A program made the translations under genes and the position numbers. Below the pieces are notes generated by a model that worked only from the letters and a program-made list of their open reading frames with translations, made no database searches and was not told where the DNA came from. Source: an uncultured Bacteroidota bacterium (GTDB lineage Bacteria > Bacteroidota > Bacteroidia > 2-12-FULL-35-15). From it: DNA of 34,462 nt. The stretch spans positions 1 through 34,462 of the forward strand of contig CAIQBY010000339.1 of the NCBI GenBank assembly GCA_903870175.1, in the 5' to 3' direction. The stretch's first letter is position 1, and the number at the start of each line of letters is the position of its first letter. Shown piece by piece: positions 1-31,804 of this stretch.

Positions 1-63
1 CGCATCGGAGTAACATTGCAACGTATCAGAGTAACATTGCAACGTACTGTTTTATGTTTGTAA
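1..63 (+). repeat. 21-bp tandem repeat array of copy A (partial)
   Basis: Three consecutive 21-bp units start at 1, 22 and 43. Units 1 and 2 are nearly identical, each with CG then ATC and ending in ACATTGCAA; unit 3 is degenerate. The period and the CG-TATC anchor match the array at 21579-21830, but the unit sequence differs. The array probably extends beyond the left edge of the window. Confidence 0.7.
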
Positions 64-475
64 CACGCGAATGCTTAATTAATAAACACTTACAGATATA
101 AAATTCTTGAATAATTACTTAATCGGGCAGTGTTATGCTCCATTTTCTGCTCAAAATGATTAAATAAACAGTAAAAAACCAGGAATTAATAACAATACAG
201 GGAAATAGAAAAAAGCAAAATATTTACACTATTTAAGTAAAACCGATTTAAGAATGATAATTATTTTCTGATGTTTTCAATTTAAAAAACTGATAAATAA
301 AAATCAGAATTTTAATAATTGCCACATGCCAAAAAATTGGCTTGGAAAACAAATTCTGGAGAGAAGTGATTTTTTAAAATTTATGTGTCAAAAAAATAAA
401 ACTTTGGCAAGGCTAAAAATCCAACCAAAGGAAGCAGATAAATAACGTGATGAAAACCAGGGGAGGGGTGGAGGA
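1..475 (+). repeat. Long non-coding dispersed element, copy A (left end cut by window)
   Basis: No credible gene lies here. The stretch aligns by eye with 21831-22346. Shared landmarks in the same order are TTTTATGTTT after the tandem array, ATTACTTA, TCAAAATG followed by TAAATAAACAGTAAAA, AACCGATTT followed by ATGATAATTATTTTCT, TTGGAAAACAAATT (TTTGAAAACAAATT in copy B), and TTGGCAA. Both end in AAAACCAGGGG or AAAACAGGGG. Copy A starts inside its 21-bp array (1-63) and its terminal block is 404-463. It lacks the palindromic insert seen in copy B. Divergence is substantial, so this is an old repeat and not a recent duplication. Function unknown. Confidence 0.7.
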
Positions 476-532
476 GAATTACGAATAGGCGAAAGAAGAG
501 AAAGGAATAAAGAGATAAATAGCGATGTTATA

Positions 533-689
533 TTTTTTGTTACACAGAGAAGAAATCAGAGAAGTCATAACTTGTCCCGATTTTTCGGGAGAGAACCACA
601 GAGTTTTATTTTTTGTAAAACAACCATTCTATATTTGTTCCCTCTGTGGTTCTCTGTGACTCCTCCTTTTAACTCTGTGTAACAAAAAA
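533..689. repeat. MITE-like inverted-repeat element
   Basis: A 17-bp perfect terminal inverted repeat (533-549 with 673-689; core GTTACACAGAG) encloses a second 13-bp inverted repeat (591-603, GAGAACCACAGAG, with 642-654) and a small hairpin, TCCCGA-TTTT-TCGGGA, at 575-590. It has no coding capacity. Nested palindromes built from CTCTGTGGTTCTCTGTG-type sequence recur in Bacteroidota intergenic DNA. It sits between two copies of the CAGGGG terminal block (404-463 and 698-770). A degenerate half copy lies at about 21305-21368. Confidence 0.7.
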
Positions 690-697
690 ACATCCCC

Positions 698-770
698 TTG
701 GCAAGGCTAAAAAACCAACCAAACCAAGCAGATAAATAACGTGAAGAAAACCAGGGGCGACATCATTACG
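698..770 (+). repeat. CAGGGG terminal block, second copy
   Basis: This repeats 404-463 almost exactly: TTGGCAAGGCTAAAAA, then CCAACCAAA, AGCAGATAAATAACGTGA, then GAAAACCAGGGG, continuing into CGACATCATTACGG. Together with the copies at 2944, 7209, 21411 (minus strand), 21481, 22279 and 31781 it defines a dispersed intergenic motif. The region from about 741 to the start codon at 870 was also duplicated upstream of the paralogous gene at 3075. Confidence 0.7.
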
Positions 771-836: not shown

Positions 837-865
837 TTGATAACTCGTTTATTTAATTACATTTG
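837..865 (+). promoter_or_regulatory. Bacteroidota-type promoter, nearly leaderless
   Basis: A perfect -7 box TACATTTG (858-865) matches TAnnTTTG. TTG at 837-839 is a possible -33 element with 18 bp between them. The start codon is only 4 nt beyond the -7 box, so the transcript would begin at or next to the ATG. Confidence 0.6.
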
Positions 866-869
866 GCAG

Positions 870-2852
870 ATGAAGTATATTTTTTATCTGCTAATATTTT
901 TCCTGTCGATTTCTGTTAAGCTTGTTTCGCAGGACCGCAGCCTTACAAAGTTTGGAGTGGTGGATAAAAGCGATCTCGAAATGAAATATTACGACCGCGA
1001 TTCGTCAGCCGAAGCAGCAGTATTATATGACTATGCAGATACTTATTTTAAATGGAGCAGCTTTGAAGATGCTTACGTTATTATAACCAACTATAAACTG
1101 CGTATTAAAGTATTTAAAAAGTCGGCACTCGGTCGCGCTACACATATCATTCCTTATATTCACAGTACTTTCGGAGCCACAGAACGGATAACGGATATAA
1201 AAGGATTTACTTATAATCTTGTAAATGGTGAGATAGAAACTACCCGACTGGAGAAGGAAGCCATCGTGGAAGAGCAGGTGGTGAACAACAGGTATGCGAA
1301 AAAAATAATAATGCCTAATGTAAAAGAAGGCTCTGTATTCGAATTCAGCTATGTGCTCGAAACTCCTTTTAGTGTTACCGACAAGCCGCATACATGGTAT
1401 TTTCAGGAGGACATACCGAATGAGTGGAGCGAAATAAATGTGATGGTCCCCAATAATCTGGGATATAAAATTATTACGGGCGGATATTATTCGTTGGCAG
1501 TAAACCACAGCGAACCTGTTATAGATTATAAACGGGGAGATGGAACATCGAGTATACAACTAAAACTGGCAACAAAAAATTTGCCTGCTGTCAAAGAAGA
1601 ACCTTTTGCGCCGGTAAGGTCTGATTATATTTCGAAAGCGGAATTCGAGCTTTCTACGTATAAAGGGCCAAACGGTCCTACTCGGGTTTTTTCGAGAACA
1701 TGGGAAGACCTGAATAAATTTTTGGTAGAGAACGAACATTTTGGTGAACAGATGAAAAGCAGGGGCTATCTGAGAGATATAGCAGATGGCTTTCGCAACG
1801 AGAAAGATTCTATTGCCATTATTAATTCAGTATTCAAGTATGTATCTGCCAATATAAAATGGGAAGGGTTGAACAATACGATATATGCACAGCAAGACTT
1901 AAAAAAAGTAGTGCAAAACAGAAAAGGCTCCACAGCCGAAATAAATTTACTGCTGGTGGCACTCCTTCGCGAACTGGGCTTTGAAGCCAATCCTGTGATT
2001 TTAAGTACACGGCAGAATGGAAGATTTAAAAAGGATTATCCTATGCTTGATGATTTTAATTATGTGATAGCAGCAGTAAATCTTGGTGGCAGGGATATAT
2101 TGATGGATGCCACCGACCCGCTTACGTATCCTGGTCTGTTGCCCGAACGATGTCTGAATGAGAAAGGGCTGCTGATAAAGAAAAATGGTGGACGTTTTGT
2201 TTCGCTTGAGCCTTCCGAAAAATATTCAAAGTATGAATATATTACAGCTGATTTGAATGCTGCCGACGGCAGATTGACCGGAGAATATTCGCTTACATGC
2301 GGCGGATACATGGGGTTGATGGAAAGACATAGTATAAAAGACGGAAGTGAAAAAGAGGTGATGAACATGATTAAAGATTACCGCTCGCAGTGGCAGATTG
2401 ACAGTTTCAAGCTGGATGGAAAGGATAATAGTAGAGAACCATTGAAAATTACCTGTCGCTTTACTGCCGAAAATCCCGGTTCTTCATCTGGTATTATTTA
2501 TCTGAATCCGGTGCTGTGCAGTGCCATCACCTACAATCCTTTTAATGCTTCCGATAGAATGTATCCTATTGAATATGAAAAACCGGTTGATAGAATATAT
2601 GTTGCCACCATTAAAATACCTGCAGGATATAAAGTGGAAGAAATGCCGAAAGCCGCTACTATTGTGCTTCCCGATGGAGGAATGAAATTTGTATATTCGG
2701 TTGATACAGCCGATAATTTGATTCGTGTTTCCTGCCGGTTTTCAATTACCACTACCAATTATAAAGCTGATAATTACAGACTGCTGAAAGAATTTTATAA
2801 TAAAATGATTAAAAAATATTCGGAACAGGTTGTTCTGAAAAAAATTTCCTGA
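870..2852 (+). CDS. Secreted DUF3857/transglutaminase-like protein (paralog 1, catalytic triad lost)
   Basis: A 660-residue protein with a signal peptide (MKYIFYLLIFFLSISVKLVS, then Q). An N-terminal DUF3857-type beta region (about 40-260) is followed by a transglutaminase-like fold (about 290-420) and a C-terminal DUF3858-like beta domain. Aligned with the neighbour at 5198, the catalytic Cys position is Thr355 (in KGSTAEIN) and the His position is Tyr398 (in DFNYVIA); Asp413 (MDATDP) remains. It is therefore probably not a working cysteine enzyme. The start at 870 is preferred over the in-frame ATG at 837. It gives the same length and signal peptide as the paralog at 3075, and the promoter box lies between the two ATGs. 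Likely periplasmic or exported; role unknown. Confidence 0.85.
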   Translation: MKYIFYLLIFFLSISVKLVSQDRSLTKFGVVDKSDLEMKYYDRDSSAEAAVLYDYADTYFKWSSFEDAYVIITNYKLRIKVFKKSALGRATHIIPYIHSTFGATERITDIKGFTYNLVNGEIETTRLEKEAIVEEQVVNNRYAKKIIMPNVKEGSVFEFSYVLETPFSVTDKPHTWYFQEDIPNEWSEINVMVPNNLGYKIITGGYYSLAVNHSEPVIDYKRGDGTSSIQLKLATKNLPAVKEEPFAPVRSDYISKAEFELSTYKGPNGPTRVFSRTWEDLNKFLVENEHFGEQMKSRGYLRDIADGFRNEKDSIAIINSVFKYVSANIKWEGLNNTIYAQQDLKKVVQNRKGSTAEINLLLVALLRELGFEANPVILSTRQNGRFKKDYPMLDDFNYVIAAVNLGGRDILMDATDPLTYPGLLPERCLNEKGLLIKKNGGRFVSLEPSEKYSKYEYITADLNAADGRLTGEYSLTCGGYMGLMERHSIKDGSEKEVMNMIKDYRSQWQIDSFKLDGKDNSREPLKITCRFTAENPGSSSGIIYLNPVLCSAITYNPFNASDRMYPIEYEKPVDRIYVATIKIPAGYKVEEMPKAATIVLPDGGMKFVYSVDTADNLIRVSCRFSITTTNYKADNYRLLKEFYNKMIKKYSEQVVLKKIS

Positions 2853-2943
2853 TGATTGCATGGCGCATATTTACTGGTACTTAAGCGCATTAATAACCGT
2901 ACAGTATCTTGATTATTATTTTTATTATTCACTGAAATTACAA

Positions 2944-2975
2944 ACGTGAAGAAAAACAGGGGTGACATCATTGCG
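2944..2975 (+). repeat. CAGGGG core repeat (solo)
   Basis: ACGTGAAGAAAAACAGGGG followed by TGACATCATTGCGG, lying between the tandem paralogs. It was probably carried along in the tandem duplication, since the bases from here to the next start codon align with 740-872. Confidence 0.65.
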
Positions 2976-3062
2976 GTTGATTAATAAAATTTAGAAACAA
3001 GTACATATCATGAATAATTTCTCAATTTACTTCTCAGCACATTAATAATTCGTTTATTTAAT

Positions 3063-3070
3063 TACATTTG
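3063..3070 (+). promoter_or_regulatory. -7 box of the paralog 2 promoter
   Basis: TACATTTG, in the same context (TTTAATTACATTTGGCAG) as the promoter of paralog 1 and again 4 nt before the ATG. The duplicated unit carried its own promoter. Confidence 0.6.
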
Positions 3071-3074
3071 GCAG

Positions 3075-5057
3075 ATGAAAAAAATCATTTGTCTTATTAT
3101 AATATGCATCGTGTTTGCCGGCAATTATTTTGCGCAGGACCGCAGTCATACAAAATACGGTGTGGTGGACAGGCGCGACCTTGAAATGAAATATTATGAA
3201 AAAGATTCGTCAGCCGAAGCTGTTGTATTATATGATTATGCGGATGAATATTTTGTCTGGAATAAATTTGAAAATGCCTATTATTTTAATGCTACTCATC
3301 ATTTAAGAATCAAGATATTTAAAAAGTCCGGACTCGACCACGCCAACAGAACAATAAATTATGTTAATGGTAATTTCCTCACCAGCGAACAGATTACGAA
3401 TATAAAAGGATGTACTTATAATCTGGTAGATGGTAAAACAGTTACTGCAAAACTGGAGAAGGAATCAATATTTGACGAACAAATTTATGAAAATGATTAT
3501 CAGAAAAAAATAAAAATGCCTGATGTAAAGGAAGGTTCTATTTTCGAATTGGAGTACACGCGTGAAACTCCATTTACTGTCAGAAATAAGCCATACACAT
3601 GGGCGTTTCAATCGGATATTCCCAGCGAATGGAGCGAAATTAATCTTACCATACCTGATTTTCTGCATTATAAAATTATAATGGGCGGTTCTTTTCCTTT
3701 AGCTATAAATAAAAAGGAAGGCGCCACTATTAATTATAACAATAAATATACTGCAGGAACAAAATATATTTTTGCTGCAAAAGACTTGCCTGCATTTCAT
3801 AATGAATCATTCATAACAACAAAGAGCGACTATATTTCGAAAGTGGTATTTGAGCTTTCAGGTTATCAGTTTCCTGGTGAGATGAGTAAAAATTTTACTG
3901 AATCATGGGCAGATATGAATAATACGCTTTTAATGTCGGTAAAATTTGGCGAACGGCTAAAAGAATCAGCTGGTTTGAAAGATATAGTAAAATCAATTGA
4001 AGCGATAACTGATTCAATGGAGAAAATTAACGCTGCCTTCAAGTATGTTTCCACAACCATTAAATATGATAATTCATCACATAATGTTTACGTCTTTCAG
4101 GACTTGAAAAAAACAATTGAAAATAAAAAGGGAACTGCTGCCGAAATAAATCTAATAATGGTAAATCTGCTTCGCCAGCTGGGTTTCGATGCTAATCCTG
4201 TAATATTAAGTACAAGAAATAATGGTAAAATAAAAGAAGATTTTCCTATGCTTTCCGATTTTAATTATGTGATTGCAGAAGTAAAAATCGGAGGGAAAGA
4301 AATATTAATGGATGCCACTGAACCTTATTCCTATCCGGGACTTTTGCCGGAACGGTGCCTGAATGGAAATGGCAGACTGATTAAAAAAAATGATACCAGA
4401 TTTGTATCATTAGCACCTGCCGAAAAATTTTCGAAATTCGAATATATAACAGCAGAAGTGGATGCCGAAGTGGGTGAAATAAAAGGAATGTATTCAATCA
4501 CCAGCAGCGGATACAGAGCACTCGAAAAAAGAATTTATTTTAACAGTATGGCCGAAAAAATACTGAGGGAGAAATTAAATGAAGACAGGCCTGACTGGCA
4601 CAAGGACAGTATTAAAATTGAAGAAAAAATTAACCCGCAGGTTCCATTGAAAGTTTCTTATGGTTTTTCTTTCGATAATAATAATCTGACAAAATCAATT
4701 GTTTATTTGAACCCGATGATAACAGGTAAAATAACTGATAATCCTTTCAAAGCTCCCGAAAGAATTTATCCTGTAGATTTTACTTATCCGTTGGAAGAGA
4801 TATTTATGGCTTCAATAAAGCTGCCTGCCGGTTATACTGTTGATGAACTTCCGAAATCGGAAATGATAACTTTGCCCGACGGAGCAGGCAGATTTATGTA
4901 TACAATGGACGTAACGGATAATACGGTTCGTGTTTCGAGTAAGCTGTCCATTTACAAGACAAATTTTACTCCCGCTGAATATCACTATTTAACGGAATTC
5001 TATAATAAAATAATTCAGAAACATTCGGAAGTGATTGTTTTAAAAAAGAATAAATAA
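3075..5057 (+). CDS. Secreted DUF3857/transglutaminase-like protein (paralog 2, catalytic triad lost)
   Basis: A 660-residue tandem paralog of the preceding gene with the same length and domain order. The signal peptide is MKKIICLIIICIVFAGNYFA-Q. The catalytic Cys position is Ala355 (KKGTAAEIN) and the His position is Tyr398 (FNYVIAEV); the MDAT Asp is retained. Because both paralogs keep the fold, the LLPERCLN motif and the C-terminal TYP/KSE-type ending, they look like maintained non-catalytic proteins and not decaying copies. The upstream 130 bp are duplicated too. Exact role unknown; an exported binding or scaffold function is only a guess. Confidence 0.85.
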   Translation: MKKIICLIIICIVFAGNYFAQDRSHTKYGVVDRRDLEMKYYEKDSSAEAVVLYDYADEYFVWNKFENAYYFNATHHLRIKIFKKSGLDHANRTINYVNGNFLTSEQITNIKGCTYNLVDGKTVTAKLEKESIFDEQIYENDYQKKIKMPDVKEGSIFELEYTRETPFTVRNKPYTWAFQSDIPSEWSEINLTIPDFLHYKIIMGGSFPLAINKKEGATINYNNKYTAGTKYIFAAKDLPAFHNESFITTKSDYISKVVFELSGYQFPGEMSKNFTESWADMNNTLLMSVKFGERLKESAGLKDIVKSIEAITDSMEKINAAFKYVSTTIKYDNSSHNVYVFQDLKKTIENKKGTAAEINLIMVNLLRQLGFDANPVILSTRNNGKIKEDFPMLSDFNYVIAEVKIGGKEILMDATEPYSYPGLLPERCLNGNGRLIKKNDTRFVSLAPAEKFSKFEYITAEVDAEVGEIKGMYSITSSGYRALEKRIYFNSMAEKILREKLNEDRPDWHKDSIKIEEKINPQVPLKVSYGFSFDNNNLTKSIVYLNPMITGKITDNPFKAPERIYPVDFTYPLEEIFMASIKLPAGYTVDELPKSEMITLPDGAGRFMYTMDVTDNTVRVSSKLSIYKTNFTPAEYHYLTEFYNKIIQKHSEVIVLKKNK

Positions 5058-5197
5058 TGGTATGCGAATAAATAAGCATAAAAAAGAATAGTGCCTCACG
5101 CGCAACTTTCCCATTACTTATTTCAGGAAGAAGGATTGTTCATTTGTTTCAGAAGACAAGGGGCATTGGTTAAATGAAATTGTAAAGCAAATAAATT

Positions 5198-7114
5198 ATG
5201 AAACATGTTCTCTTTATTTTATTTTATTTTTTGTCAGCATTTATAATTGCACAGGATAATTATAATGTTGATTTGATACCAGCAAAATTAAAGGAGAATG
5301 CAGATGCTGTAATAAGGTTGGACGAACATGTTTTCACCATCATTAACCCCGGGAAAGCAGTTATAAAAGAACATCTTTCAGTTACTGTGTTTAACGAACG
5401 TGGTGAAGAAAAACACGGGGTGTACTATGTTCATTATGATAAATTCACTAAAATAAATTCGCTCGAAGGAATCCTTTATGATGCCACAGGCAAGGTAATC
5501 CAGCGGCTTAAAAAAAGCAATATAAAAGATATAAGTAAAGGAGCATTTGATGATGAAATAAGTGATGTAAGATATCAGGTTGCCAGTTTCGAAAAAAAAA
5601 GTTATCCCTATCCTTATACCATCGAATTTATTTTTGAAGAAGAAACGAAGAATATGATGTTTTATCCGGAATGGGAACCAATGAGAAATGAGCATACTTC
5701 AATTGAGAAATCAACATTTTCGATAATTCATCCGCCATCAATTAATTTCAGATTCAAAGAAATTAATATTGTAAATCCCGGCATTATCTATAAAGGCGAA
5801 AAAGAAATTCAACAAACATGGAAGCTGGAAAATTGTATGGCTTATGAGAATGAAAACTACATACCTGATTACCTGCATCCCGAAGTGATTACAGCACCCA
5901 TTGAATTTGAAGTGGAAGGTTATAAAGGTAACTTTAATACATGGTCGGATTTCGGGAAATTTTATTTTCAACTTAATAATAATAGAGGCGAACTGCCTGT
6001 AAACATTAAAACGAAAGTGAAAGAACTTACAGGGGGAGAGACATCAACTCTAAAAAAGATAGAGAAATTATATGATTATTTACAGGCAAATACTCGGTAT
6101 ATAAGTATTCAGTTGGGCATTGGTGGTTGGCAGACAAGGGAAGCGAAGGAAGTGGGTACTAAAGGATATGGTGATTGCAAGGCGTTATCCAATTACATGG
6201 TGGCATTGCTGAAAGAAGCCGGTATTAATAGTTATGTAGCATTGATACATGCAGGCGATGATGCACCCGAAATTATTGAGGACTTTCCTCATAACCAGTT
6301 CAATCATGTTATTGCATGTGTGCCTGTGAGCAACGATACCGTTTGGCTTGAATGTACCAGTCAGTTTGAATCTCTGGGTTATCAGGGAGATTTTACAGGA
6401 AACAGAAAAGCATTATTGATAACTCCGGAAGGCGGAAAACTTGTAAATACTTCTATTTACAGCCCATCGGATAATTTACTTTCTCGTAATGCTAAAGTTA
6501 CGGTGGATGAATCCGGAAATGCAATTGCATCCGTAGTTACTGATTATAAAGGGATTCAGCAGAAGAGATTAAATTATGTAATGCACAGTTATAACAGTGA
6601 AAAACAAAAACAATGGCTTCAAAAATCAATAAATATCTCCAGTTTCGAATTAAAATCATTTTCGGTTTCCGAGAAAAAAGGAAGGATACCAACGATAACA
6701 GAGAAACTGGAATTAGCGATAACCAGAAAAGCAAATGTAAGTGGTACTCGGCTGTTTATCACACCCAACTTAATTCCTGATTTCTTTCCGCAGCCGGTAA
6801 TAAAAGGAACAAGGAAGTCACCCCTGTTCCTGAATCCGAATGAATACAGCATTCAGGATATTGATACAATACGGTATCAGTTGCCACCGAATTATGAAAT
6901 AGAATCAATGCCCGATCCGGTAAAAATCCAATCTCCTTTCGGTGAGTATTCAGTTACAATAACATTCGCAAATAATAATTTAATTTATTGCAGAAATGTA
7001 ACCTTGAAGGGTGGAACGTACCCTGCTGCAACCTATCCGGATTGGAGCAGTTTTGTTAAGAAAGTTAAAAAGAATGATAATTTAGATGTCGTGTTTGTAA
7101 AGAAAAAGGATTAA
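5198..7114 (+). CDS. Secreted DUF3857/transglutaminase-domain protein
   Basis: 638 residues with the signal peptide MKHVLFILFYFLSAFIIA-Q. The DUF3857 region is followed by a transglutaminase-like core carrying Cys327 (GYGDCKA) and His370 (QFNHVIACV). The third position is Glu385 (WLECTSQ) where the upstream paralogs have Asp. This is the only one of the three neighbours with a plausible Cys-His pair. It is more distantly related than the first two are to each other. The ATG at 5198 directly precedes the hydrophobic signal. The 140-bp gap upstream shows no clear TAnnTTTG box. Probable periplasmic protein; substrate unknown. Confidence 0.85.
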   Translation: MKHVLFILFYFLSAFIIAQDNYNVDLIPAKLKENADAVIRLDEHVFTIINPGKAVIKEHLSVTVFNERGEEKHGVYYVHYDKFTKINSLEGILYDATGKVIQRLKKSNIKDISKGAFDDEISDVRYQVASFEKKSYPYPYTIEFIFEEETKNMMFYPEWEPMRNEHTSIEKSTFSIIHPPSINFRFKEINIVNPGIIYKGEKEIQQTWKLENCMAYENENYIPDYLHPEVITAPIEFEVEGYKGNFNTWSDFGKFYFQLNNNRGELPVNIKTKVKELTGGETSTLKKIEKLYDYLQANTRYISIQLGIGGWQTREAKEVGTKGYGDCKALSNYMVALLKEAGINSYVALIHAGDDAPEIIEDFPHNQFNHVIACVPVSNDTVWLECTSQFESLGYQGDFTGNRKALLITPEGGKLVNTSIYSPSDNLLSRNAKVTVDESGNAIASVVTDYKGIQQKRLNYVMHSYNSEKQKQWLQKSINISSFELKSFSVSEKKGRIPTITEKLELAITRKANVSGTRLFITPNLIPDFFPQPVIKGTRKSPLFLNPNEYSIQDIDTIRYQLPPNYEIESMPDPVKIQSPFGEYSVTITFANNNLIYCRNVTLKGGTYPAATYPDWSSFVKKVKKNDNLDVVFVKKKD

Positions 7115-7208: not shown

Positions 7209-7228
7209 GTGAAGAAAAGTAGGGGCGA
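7209..7228 (+). repeat. CAGGGG core repeat (solo, variant)
   Basis: GTGAAGAAAAGTAGGGGCGA, a solo copy of the core in which CAGGGG reads TAGGGG. It lies in the intergenic gap before the DUF885 gene. Confidence 0.55.
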
Positions 7229-21241: not shown

Positions 21242-21304
21242 CATATTTAATGTTAACAAGCAAGATTGGGTTAGAATGCAGATATATTTTTTAAGATTCA
21301 GCTA

Positions 21305-21368
21305 CTACATATTTGTTCCTTTTGTGAATCTATGTGATTCCTCATTCTAACTTTGTATAAAAAAAATG
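21305..21368 (+). repeat. Degenerate half copy of the 533-689 MITE-like element
   Basis: Aligns with 630-690: ATATTTGTTCC, then TGTGAATCTATGTGA (TGTGGTTCTCTGTGA in the intact copy), then TTCCTCATTCTAACTTTGTATAA (CTCCTCCTTTTAACTCTGTGTAA). Only the right half is recognisable. Confidence 0.5.
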
Positions 21369-21410
21369 CATTTTAATTTTTTATATTTTTATTTCTCTTT
21401 ATTTCCTCAC

Positions 21411-21455
21411 GTCGCCCCTGTTTTTCCTCACGTTATTTATTTGGGCATCTTCGCT
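21411..21455 (-). repeat. CAGGGG terminal block, minus-strand copy
   Basis: Read on the minus strand it gives AAATAACGTGAGGAAAAACAGGGGCGAC, preceded by GATGCCCAAATA, matching the block at 698-770. It points away from copy B of the long element. Confidence 0.65.
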
Positions 21456-21480
21456 TTTATCAATCAAATTAATACTTCGG

Positions 21481-21502
21481 AGAAAAGCAGGGGCTGCATC
21501 AT
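21481..21502 (+). repeat. CAGGGG core at the left border of copy B
   Basis: AGAAAAGCAGGGGCTGCATC, then A. Together with the core at 22327-22346 it forms a direct-repeat frame around the 21-bp array and the non-coding body. Confidence 0.55.
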
Positions 21503-21578
21503 TTTTATTAGGGAAATAGTATTACGTATTTTCTAACATCAGAAATATAGTGTTTGCATAAGCTATACTTTTCTTCAA

Positions 21579-21830
21579 ATGGGTAATAATAGTGTAATGT
21601 CCTATAATAGTATTCATGCGTATCATAGTTATAGTGTTGCGTACTATAGTTATGTTATTCCGTACCATAGTTATGTTATTCCGTATAATAGTTATGTTGT
21701 TCCGCATCATAGTTATATTGTTCCGTATCATAGTTATAGTGTTCGGTACTATAGTTATTGTGTCCGGTATCATAGTTATGTTATTCCGCATCATAGTTAT
21801 AGTGTTCGGTATCATAGTTATGTTGTTCAG
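21579..21830 (+). repeat. 21-bp tandem repeat array of copy B
   Basis: Ten units in strict 21-bp register start at 21621, 21642, 21663, 21684, 21705, 21726, 21747, 21768, 21789 and 21810, with two degenerate units before them (21579, 21600). The invariant part of each unit is ATAGTTAT at unit positions 5-12 (one unit has ATAGTTAT with a following T, others G or A). The first four bases and the last nine (mostly TTRTTCCG or AGTGTTCGG) vary between units. Because 21 is a multiple of three, several frames stay open on both strands; these are artefacts and not genes. Confidence 0.9.
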
Positions 21831-22346
21831 CACTCTTTTATGTTTTGGATGCGTGAGTGCATGATAAACAAACACTTGCGATGATACAATTCATAAAAAA
21901 TTACTTATTCGGATTGTTTTAAGTTGCATTTTCAGGTCAAAATGTTTAAATAAACAGTAAAATGCCGGGAATTAAAATCAATAACCGGAACTGAAAAAGG
22001 ATAAAAATTTTACAATTTTAAAACAAAACCGATTTGAGTATGATAATTATTTTCTAATGTTTTCAGTTGAAAAAACGAATTATTAGGTTGTCGGTTAATA
22101 CCCCGAGGCTCTGCCTCGGAATTAAAAAAATCCTTTAACTGATACCTCGAGGCTCTGCCTCGGGGTAATTCATTAAAAAGCAAAAATTTAATAACGGTCA
22201 TACACCGTAAAATTGACTTTGAAAACAAATTTTGGAAAGAAGGTACCTTTTAAATTTATGGCACTAAAAAATAACCTCTTGGCAACGCCACAAAATAAAC
22301 CAACGCAGCCAAATAAATAGTATGATGAAAAACAGGGGCGACATCA
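21831..22346 (+). repeat. Long non-coding dispersed element, copy B body and terminal block
   Basis: This is the collinear relative of 43-463. Matching segments include ACTCTTTTATGTTTT, AAACACTTGCGATG, ATTACTTATTCGG, TCAAAATGTTTAAATAAACAGTAAAA, AAAACCGATTTGAGTATGATAATTATTTTCT (longer motifs quoted in part), and TTGAAAACAAATTTTGGA. It ends in the block CTTGGCAACG to AACAGGGGCGACATCA at 22279-22346. A palindromic insert at 22099-22167 interrupts it. No shared ORF is conserved with copy A, so the element is probably RNA- or DNA-structural. Confidence 0.7.
22099..22167. repeat. Nested palindromic insert (CGAGGCTCTGCCTCG type)
   Basis: Two hairpins with CGAGGC-TCT-GCCTCG (22104-22118 and 22148-22162) sit inside an outer 10-bp inverted repeat, TACCCCGAGG (22099-22108) with CCTCGGGGTA (22158-22167). 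Copy A of the surrounding element lacks it, which supports a separate insertion event. GC-rich palindromes of this kind are widespread small dispersed repeats. Confidence 0.75.
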
Positions 22347-27220: not shown

Positions 27221-27228
27221 AACAAAAT
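27221..27228 (+). repeat. Left 8-bp target site duplication
   Basis: AACAAAAT, identical to 31764-31771. Eight base pairs is the known duplication length of the IS1595 family. Confidence 0.85.
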
Positions 27229-27254
27229 CGCACCTATCCCTTTTAGTACAGAAA
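27229..27254 (+). repeat. Left terminal inverted repeat of the transposon
   Basis: 26 bp starting CGCACCTATCCC and ending AGTACAGAAA, a perfect inverse of 31738-31763. Confidence 0.9.
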
Positions 27255-28532: not shown

Positions 28533-28670
28533 GTAGGTAAATTTTCAATACGAATTTACCTAAGTAAAAAATAAACAAATTTTACCCAGTAAAAACACTT
28601 CCACTTTTTACCTAAGTAAAAAAAATGCAAATTTTACCTAAGTAAAAACAGCATACGATTTTACCTATTC
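28533..28670. repeat. 26-bp-phased palindromic iteron array
   Basis: The sequence TTTACCTAAGTAAAAA starts at 28555, 28607 and 28633. A variant, TTTACCCAGTAAAAA, starts at 28581, a half site TTTACCTA at 28660, and an inverted half site (TAGGTAAA) at 28534-28541. The start-to-start spacing is 26, 26, 26 and 27 bp. Each full unit is itself palindromic (TTTAC-CTAA-GTAAA), as expected for a dimeric binding protein. The array lies upstream of the tRNA-like sequence and transposase, where an operator or transposition enhancer would sit. Confidence 0.85.
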
Positions 28671-28712: not shown

Positions 28713-28785
28713 GGGGAGTTAGTATTATGTGGTAAAATAACGCACTCGACAGGCGAAGTAAAGAGTTCGATTCTCTTATTCTCCA
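28713..28785 (+). ncRNA. tRNA-like sequence (73 nt), degenerate
   Basis: Seen: a seven-pair acceptor stem GGGGAGT with ATTCTCC (two G-U), T8-A9, a D-loop GG, and a perfect 5-bp T arm AAGAG-TTCGATT-CTCTT with TTCGANT loop. The unpaired 3' A is not followed by an encoded CCA. Weak points: the D stem has about three imperfect pairs, and the anticodon stem only three good pairs around CTCGACA (anticodon would be CGA). Variable loop 4 nt. It may be a decayed tRNA or a tRNA mimic. The motif GCACTCGACARGC also occurs at 28511 outside this structure. A GAACTTTG box (28689-28696) upstream is close to the -7 consensus. Confidence 0.35.
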
Positions 28786-31737: not shown

Positions 31738-31763
31738 TTTCTGTACTAAAAGGGATAGGTGCG
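31738..31763 (-). repeat. Right terminal inverted repeat of the transposon
   Basis: 26 bp ending AGGGATAGGTGCG, a perfect inverse of 27229-27254. Confidence 0.9.
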
Positions 31764-31771
31764 AACAAAAT
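31764..31771 (+). repeat. Right 8-bp target site duplication
   Basis: AACAAAAT, identical to 27221-27228. Confidence 0.85.
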
Positions 31772-31780
31772 TTATTTCTC

Positions 31781-31804
31781 GGTGAAAAGTAGGGGCTACA
31801 TCAC
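31781..31804 (+). repeat. CAGGGG core repeat (solo, variant)
   Basis: GGTGAAAAGTAGGGGCTACA, then TCAC; same layout as the core at 21481 (AGGGGCTGCATCA). The transposon inserted about ten bp to its left. Confidence 0.55.

Follow-up and report, generated by a model that had tools for sequence, protein, structure and literature searches.

A short non-coding element, dispersed in the genome of an uncultured Bacteroidota bacterium, is accompanied by runs of single genes that are bounded by directly oriented ~20-bp cores and point away from the element on both of its sides. These runs are the more unusual part of the locus, and they are absent from the interpretation given by an earlier sequence-only reading, which had dealt with the element itself. 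We tentatively describe the whole as a possible form of non-integron gene capture, in which a non-coding, two-sided platform with a linear ~20-bp core would receive single-gene units stacked in both directions by a putative recombinase, and in which a satellite array is fixed within the platform. For the narrower proposition that units are stacked outward, on either side of a platform, by trans-acting site-specific recombination at the core, we regard the case as evenly balanced. The window, that is, the whole stretch of 34,462 nucleotides analysed here, is contig C339 of the source assembly (G000), a fragmented single MAG of 3.95 Mb in 423 contigs with a completeness of ~97% and an estimated contamination of 3.6%. 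Other C-numbers denote contigs of the same assembly unless prefixed with G012, the sister species, which is itself a single MAG (an uncultured Bacteroidetes bin; element contig C546, CAIRRW010000546.1).

The element is about 0.85-0.95 kb long, and its complete copy in the window (copy B, 21411-22346), which lies between genes for MoxR and FolC, consists in order of a double-core hairpin, a 21-bp array, a body and an outward CAGGGG end. On the left, a core pattern scan places an outward core on the minus strand (GTGAGGAAAAACAGGGGCGAC; 21411-21431), which forms part of a hairpin predicted by ssDNA folding (21409-21500) whose two cores face apart across a ~45-bp spacer; the z value of this fold is about -3 in copy B, -3.6 in C93 and -5.4 in G012. 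The inner core of the hairpin (GGAGAAAAGCAGGGGCTGCATCA; about 21479-21501, plus strand, from sequence and core scan) is the left member of the CAGGGG-type direct repeats by which the sequence-only reading had framed the copy, and this frame stands (CAGGGGCTGCATCA at 21488, CAGGGGCGACATCA at 22333), but the start assigned to the element does not, because it begins 70 bp further left, at the inverted core. The remaining parts are all read on the plus strand: a conserved left arm homologous to C93 and G012 and ending in TTTTCTTCAAATGGGTAATAATAGTG (21502-21618), ten copies of the 21-bp tandem repeat identified with Tandem Repeats Finder (21619-21828), the post-array flank with the first part of the body (21829-22079) and the second part of the body with a type-2 right end (CCAACGCAGCCAAATAAATAG; 22175-22321), both delimited by comparison of copies, and the right outward core located by pattern scan (ATGATGAAAAACAGGGGCGACATCA; 22322-22346). 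At its outer ends the element has inverted repeats of 34 bp (21411-21444 and 22309-22342, 88% identity). Left of the copy, positions 21280-21410 on the minus strand are probably a decayed hairpin unit, as judged from a 73% match between 21280-21371 and 602-693 and from a AAATAAAGAGAAATAAAAAT-type leader. Two occurrences of ACGTGAGGAAA straddle the left core at a distance of exactly 21 bp (21411-21450, minus strand; ACGTGAGGAAAAACAGGGGCG and ACGTGAGGAAAT), which gives the core itself the look of a degenerate 21-bp unit.

A 95-bp repeat (22080-22174, unstranded) splits the body of copy B. It holds two CCGAGGCTCTGCCTCGG palindromes, is missing from copy A and has more than 15 near-identical copies elsewhere in G000, with shorter matches in other species; it is a separate nested insertion and lies outside the element proper. 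At roughly this position, the body on C303 carries a different nested insertion, which has AGACCTCTTTCATAATT as its inverted ends and TAATA on either side.

Copy A lies at the start of the window (1-467, plus strand), where the contig begins within the array, and comprises the array end (1-42), the body, a type-2 end and a core; the body of copy B is shared with positions 43-458. Both copies have the array flanks and the body in the same order, which bears out the proposal of a dispersed element made of array, body and CAGGGG end. The count of two copies did not survive a search of the genome and its relatives, which added C303, C209, C214, C93 and G012. A third body lies at C303:16204-16843, C209 has the array with a body cut after about 100 bp, C214 has a diverged copy with a different array unit at about 7.57-8.19 kb, and the sister species has one copy on G012:C546; C93 and C92 hold left parts of the element and C65 its left edge. 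Three left-end and three right-end contigs stop, unjoined, in or near the same type of array, so three A-type copies are likely. In the post-array flank, CGTACTSTTTTATGTTTGTAACAC is conserved in copy A and C214 and differs by one change in G012. Nothing similar to the element was found in a phage collection or in viral contigs, and a match to the post-array motif in G028 was dismissed as chance because no array adjoins it; a short match in G033 has no element in its surroundings. Rfam models, run on the window and six loci, matched only a tRNA. Just ahead of the tRNA gene at 28713-28785 lies a 26-bp tandem array of TTTTACCTAAGTAAAAA units (28547-28667).

The copies had been said to share no open reading frame, which needs correction: a 101-aa frame spans the array of copy B and can be aligned in copy A, with an ATG and a similar start and C-terminus in both. 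The element is nevertheless non-coding, because the frame contains stops in the G012 and C214 copies, the latter also has no ATG, and in the non-repeat parts the differences fall on all codon positions (3/11/9 and 25/25/35 at positions 1/2/3). An alternative interpretation is that a heptapeptide-repeat gene is intact in A and B, as the ATG frame and its similar ends would allow, and decayed in the other copies; we find this scarcely credible, given those stops and the missing ATG, the lack of an excess of differences at third codon positions, and several other 21-bp arrays in G000 that contain no open frame of any kind. Thus neither of the outcomes named beforehand as arguing against the element, a body found at two loci only or the decayed remains of a protein-coding element, came true.

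The CAGGGG end belongs to a core of ~20 bp, GTGAAGAAAA-NN-AGGGGCGA, which at ≤2 mismatches has 36 matches in G000 versus 0 for the reversed pattern, far beyond chance, with 0-3 matches in relatives, close to their own controls. The cores cluster on element-bearing contigs, and on every such contig they are directed away from the element. When the species genomes of GTDB, a collection that may omit the source genome itself, were scanned for exact matches, one relevant match was returned, at the G012 locus, plus scattered single matches in unrelated genomes, and a scan of viral contigs returned 0. The core has no clear dyad, and ordinary cores fold no better than shuffles (z 0.1 to 1.4). Core scans of the plus strand of the window also located a core between two transglutaminase-type genes (2946-2966) and one with two mismatches and a unit-type leader ahead of a DUF885 gene (7209-7228), the place of which is taken by unrelated sequence in G012. 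The former, C339:2957, is one of the cores with unique sequence on both sides; the others are C92:10956, C93:3461, C214:12536 and C214:11087, the last of which sits inside a gene. Core-like sequences at C339:1760, C303:13356 and C214:7134 lie within open frames and were set aside as possible background. Three consecutive transglutaminase-type genes occupy 837-7114 of the window, and the first two (837-5057) are a tandem duplication with a period of 2205 bp that includes the core. Further right, a perfect 27-bp inverted pair (TTTCTGTACTAAAAGGGATAGGTGCGA; 27228-27254 and 31738-31764) spans 4.5 kb, its right arm lying 25 bp ahead of a sequence at 31790 that resembles a degenerate core (4 mismatches).

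Beside the platforms, cores in direct orientation bound units that are arranged in single file, each of them either one gene or a hairpin unit of ~300 bp that holds no gene. The run on C92 has 12 same-strand cores in 11.7 kb, all of them intergenic, and includes nine consecutive genes that each have a core on both sides. Cores join two kinds of left partner (platform type 1 and unit type 2) to a common right partner (GAGGTGGAGGAGAATTACG) in varied combinations, and they also adjoin unique sequence. Units recur in different surroundings: HNH_repeat gene units on C92 and C93, both 609 bp long and 78% identical, have unrelated flanks, and their homology extends from 19 bp before the first CAGGGG to 12 bp into the second. 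The gene-less hairpin unit, which runs from core to core beside copy A (458-762, plus strand, by sequence comparison) and measures about 270-340 bp (525 bp in C209), is found beside several platforms and within the C92 run. Many units have about 110 bp around the core in common, at 88-93% identity, and several cores share just ~20 bp with other cores.

Comparison with the sister species gives one orthologous platform, G000:C65 and G012:C546, where the same genes of 471 aa and ~200 aa adjoin the element. G012 has a single core between gene and platform, and G000 has two cores with a 336-bp hairpin unit between them; as read from the two sequences, one unit with cores at its borders was gained or lost, which suggests an integron-like turnover of units, although the difference could be a deletion in G012. 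Synteny between C92 and G012 ends 30 bp ahead of the first core, and for the genes of the C92 run G012 contains nothing close at the DNA level beyond weak matches to one gene of repeat type and to short stretches. MoxR and FolC, whose genes lie on either side of copy B, are encoded on separate G012 contigs with other neighbours. Two odd junctions, at C92:18558, where element-internal TTTGAAGAAAAGT is joined to AGGGGCTGCGTG, and on G012:C403, where AAACGTGAAGAAAA is joined to TTAAAACC, suggest from their sequence that the exchange point lies between GAAGAAAA and AGGGG.

We propose that the element may be a platform at which site-bounded units land on either side, with its outer cores pointing outward. 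A putative site-specific recombinase, acting in trans, would join the core of an incoming unit, perhaps a circular intermediate entering beside the platform, to one that belongs to the platform or run, and the crossover would fall within the core, immediately after GAAGAAAA; units would then stack outward as in an integron, yet on both sides. The 36 cores versus 0, their clustering and their outward direction count for such site-specific recombination, as do the C92 run, the HNH units that match from core to core, the C65/C546 difference, the break in synteny on C92, the recurring partners and the odd junctions. The element had been called mobile or structural, and the mobile part of that description is the one upheld by its dispersal, its edges at cores and the one orthologous core-bounded difference, from which we infer mobility. 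Several observations count against the site-specific reading. G000 encodes XerD, a XerC-like protein, a 361-aa tyrosine integrase, a partial tyrosine recombinase and two large serine recombinases, and none of these adjoins or is linked to a core; a tyrosine-recombinase site with no clear dyad is unusual; some cores are unique on both sides and one of them is inside a gene; the C65/C546 difference is possibly a deletion in G012; and the evidence comes from one MAG and one sister MAG, with contigs broken inside arrays.

The main rival explanation dispenses with a dedicated recombinase and holds that a dispersed repeat with the ~110-150 bp around the core multiplied beside the element, and that tandem duplication together with homologous recombination between its copies moved the genes and hairpin units. 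The ~110 bp conserved beyond the core in many units makes homologous exchange possible and so also weighs against the site-specific reading; the evident duplication of the transglutaminase genes with their core and the failure to identify a recombinase agree with this rival. We nonetheless consider this explanation unlikely, if still worth serious consideration, because the HNH units resemble each other from core to core and no further, their flanks being unrelated, several cores have just ~20 bp in common, and the outward orientation is uniform. The inverted 34-bp ends of copy B, its fitting size and the dispersed, non-coding nature of the element are those of a MITE-like transposon, in which case the core runs would be remains of nested insertions. 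This is a decidedly improbable account, because no target duplication was seen beside copy B, the cores of neighbouring units are direct rather than inverted, those units carry genes, and the bounding of single genes on both sides in a uniform orientation is left unexplained.

A functional parallel is with integrons and CALINs, in which single-gene units likewise follow one another in the same orientation, every junction bears a site, the run starts from a platform, and units are gained or lost there. The system described here works like an integron but does not belong among them, because no attC match was found, ordinary sites do not fold and no integron integrase was found: in the ~97% complete assembly, the four tyrosine recombinases score at most 137 bits against TIGR02249, far below its cut-off of 265. 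Instead, the core is linear and the platform is non-coding, with runs on both sides. That the runs are an integron remnant (CALIN) of canonical cassettes with diverged attC sites would account for the tandem run of single-gene units with a site at each junction, and is very unlikely in view of the lack of attC or other Rfam matches, the junctions without GTTRRRY, the integrase scores and the two-sided arrangement. Xer-bounded (pdif) plasmid modules have a short border site, a 28-bp XerC/XerD dyad, and contain no recombinase. Our units resemble them in having short sites at their borders and no recombinase inside, and XerC-like and XerD genes are present in G000, but the core has no clear dyad of the 28-bp XerC/XerD type and each run has one orientation. 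A partial search of the literature on integron-like systems in Bacteroidota found none describing such a system.

The element had been matched to no described class, but its 21-bp array is not of a new kind: arrays like it occur throughout G000, and it is a member of a published class of bacterial satellites whose repeat size is constant (20-21 or 52 nt) while the sequence varies (Subirana and Messeguer, PMC8161180). As to their function, those authors suggest small RNAs or a protein that forms polymers along the DNA. In 20 arbitrarily spaced contigs of G000 (166 kb), 11 of 12 tandem arrays had a period of 21 or 42 bp and the remaining one 20 bp, with unrelated units; shuffled sequence gave 0 arrays, and only two, whatever their period, turned up in 388 kb from six congeners. 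Most of the surveyed arrays fall in the gaps between gene predictions, and several contain no open frame; 21-bp-phased intergenic arrays occur about once per 14 kb of the sampled contigs, each locus with its own unit. As in the published class, a 21-bp period is held over many intergenic loci with unrelated units, the non-coding units are homogenised per locus, and abundance is species-specific, high in G000 and its sister and low in the sampled congeners. The difference is that one type of array is here fixed in a dispersed element with conserved flanks and recombination-like ends, of which we found no report in the literature examined; a partial search on 21-bp repeats in Bacteroidetes also found nothing. 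The units of copy B (CGTATCATAGTTATGTTATTC) and C214 (CGTATCAGATGAAACTTCACG) are each 62% identical to that of copy A (CGTATCAGAGTAACATTGCAA), versus 74-81% for the non-array parts of A and B, so the array unit changes no more slowly than its flanks; the motif CGTATC is common to the copies of this element, and apparently to these only. On G012 contigs C205 and C112, two genes that in G000 border the core-bounded runs of C92 and C93 each adjoin a diverged 21-bp-phased array with another unit. We suggest that the array is a passenger satellite with no part in recombination, in which units would change by slippage and homogenisation and a period of about two helical turns would be kept, perhaps for a DNA-binding protein.

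This genome thus provides a dense Bacteroidota set of constant-size 21-bp satellites, and the sister species allows the turnover of their units to be followed, so that the question of why size is fixed and sequence variable becomes more directly testable. If the recombination reading holds, the core-bounded runs would represent a second, structurally different way of lining up single genes next to a platform; its sites are simple enough for a plasmid assay, and the two species offer natural test loci.
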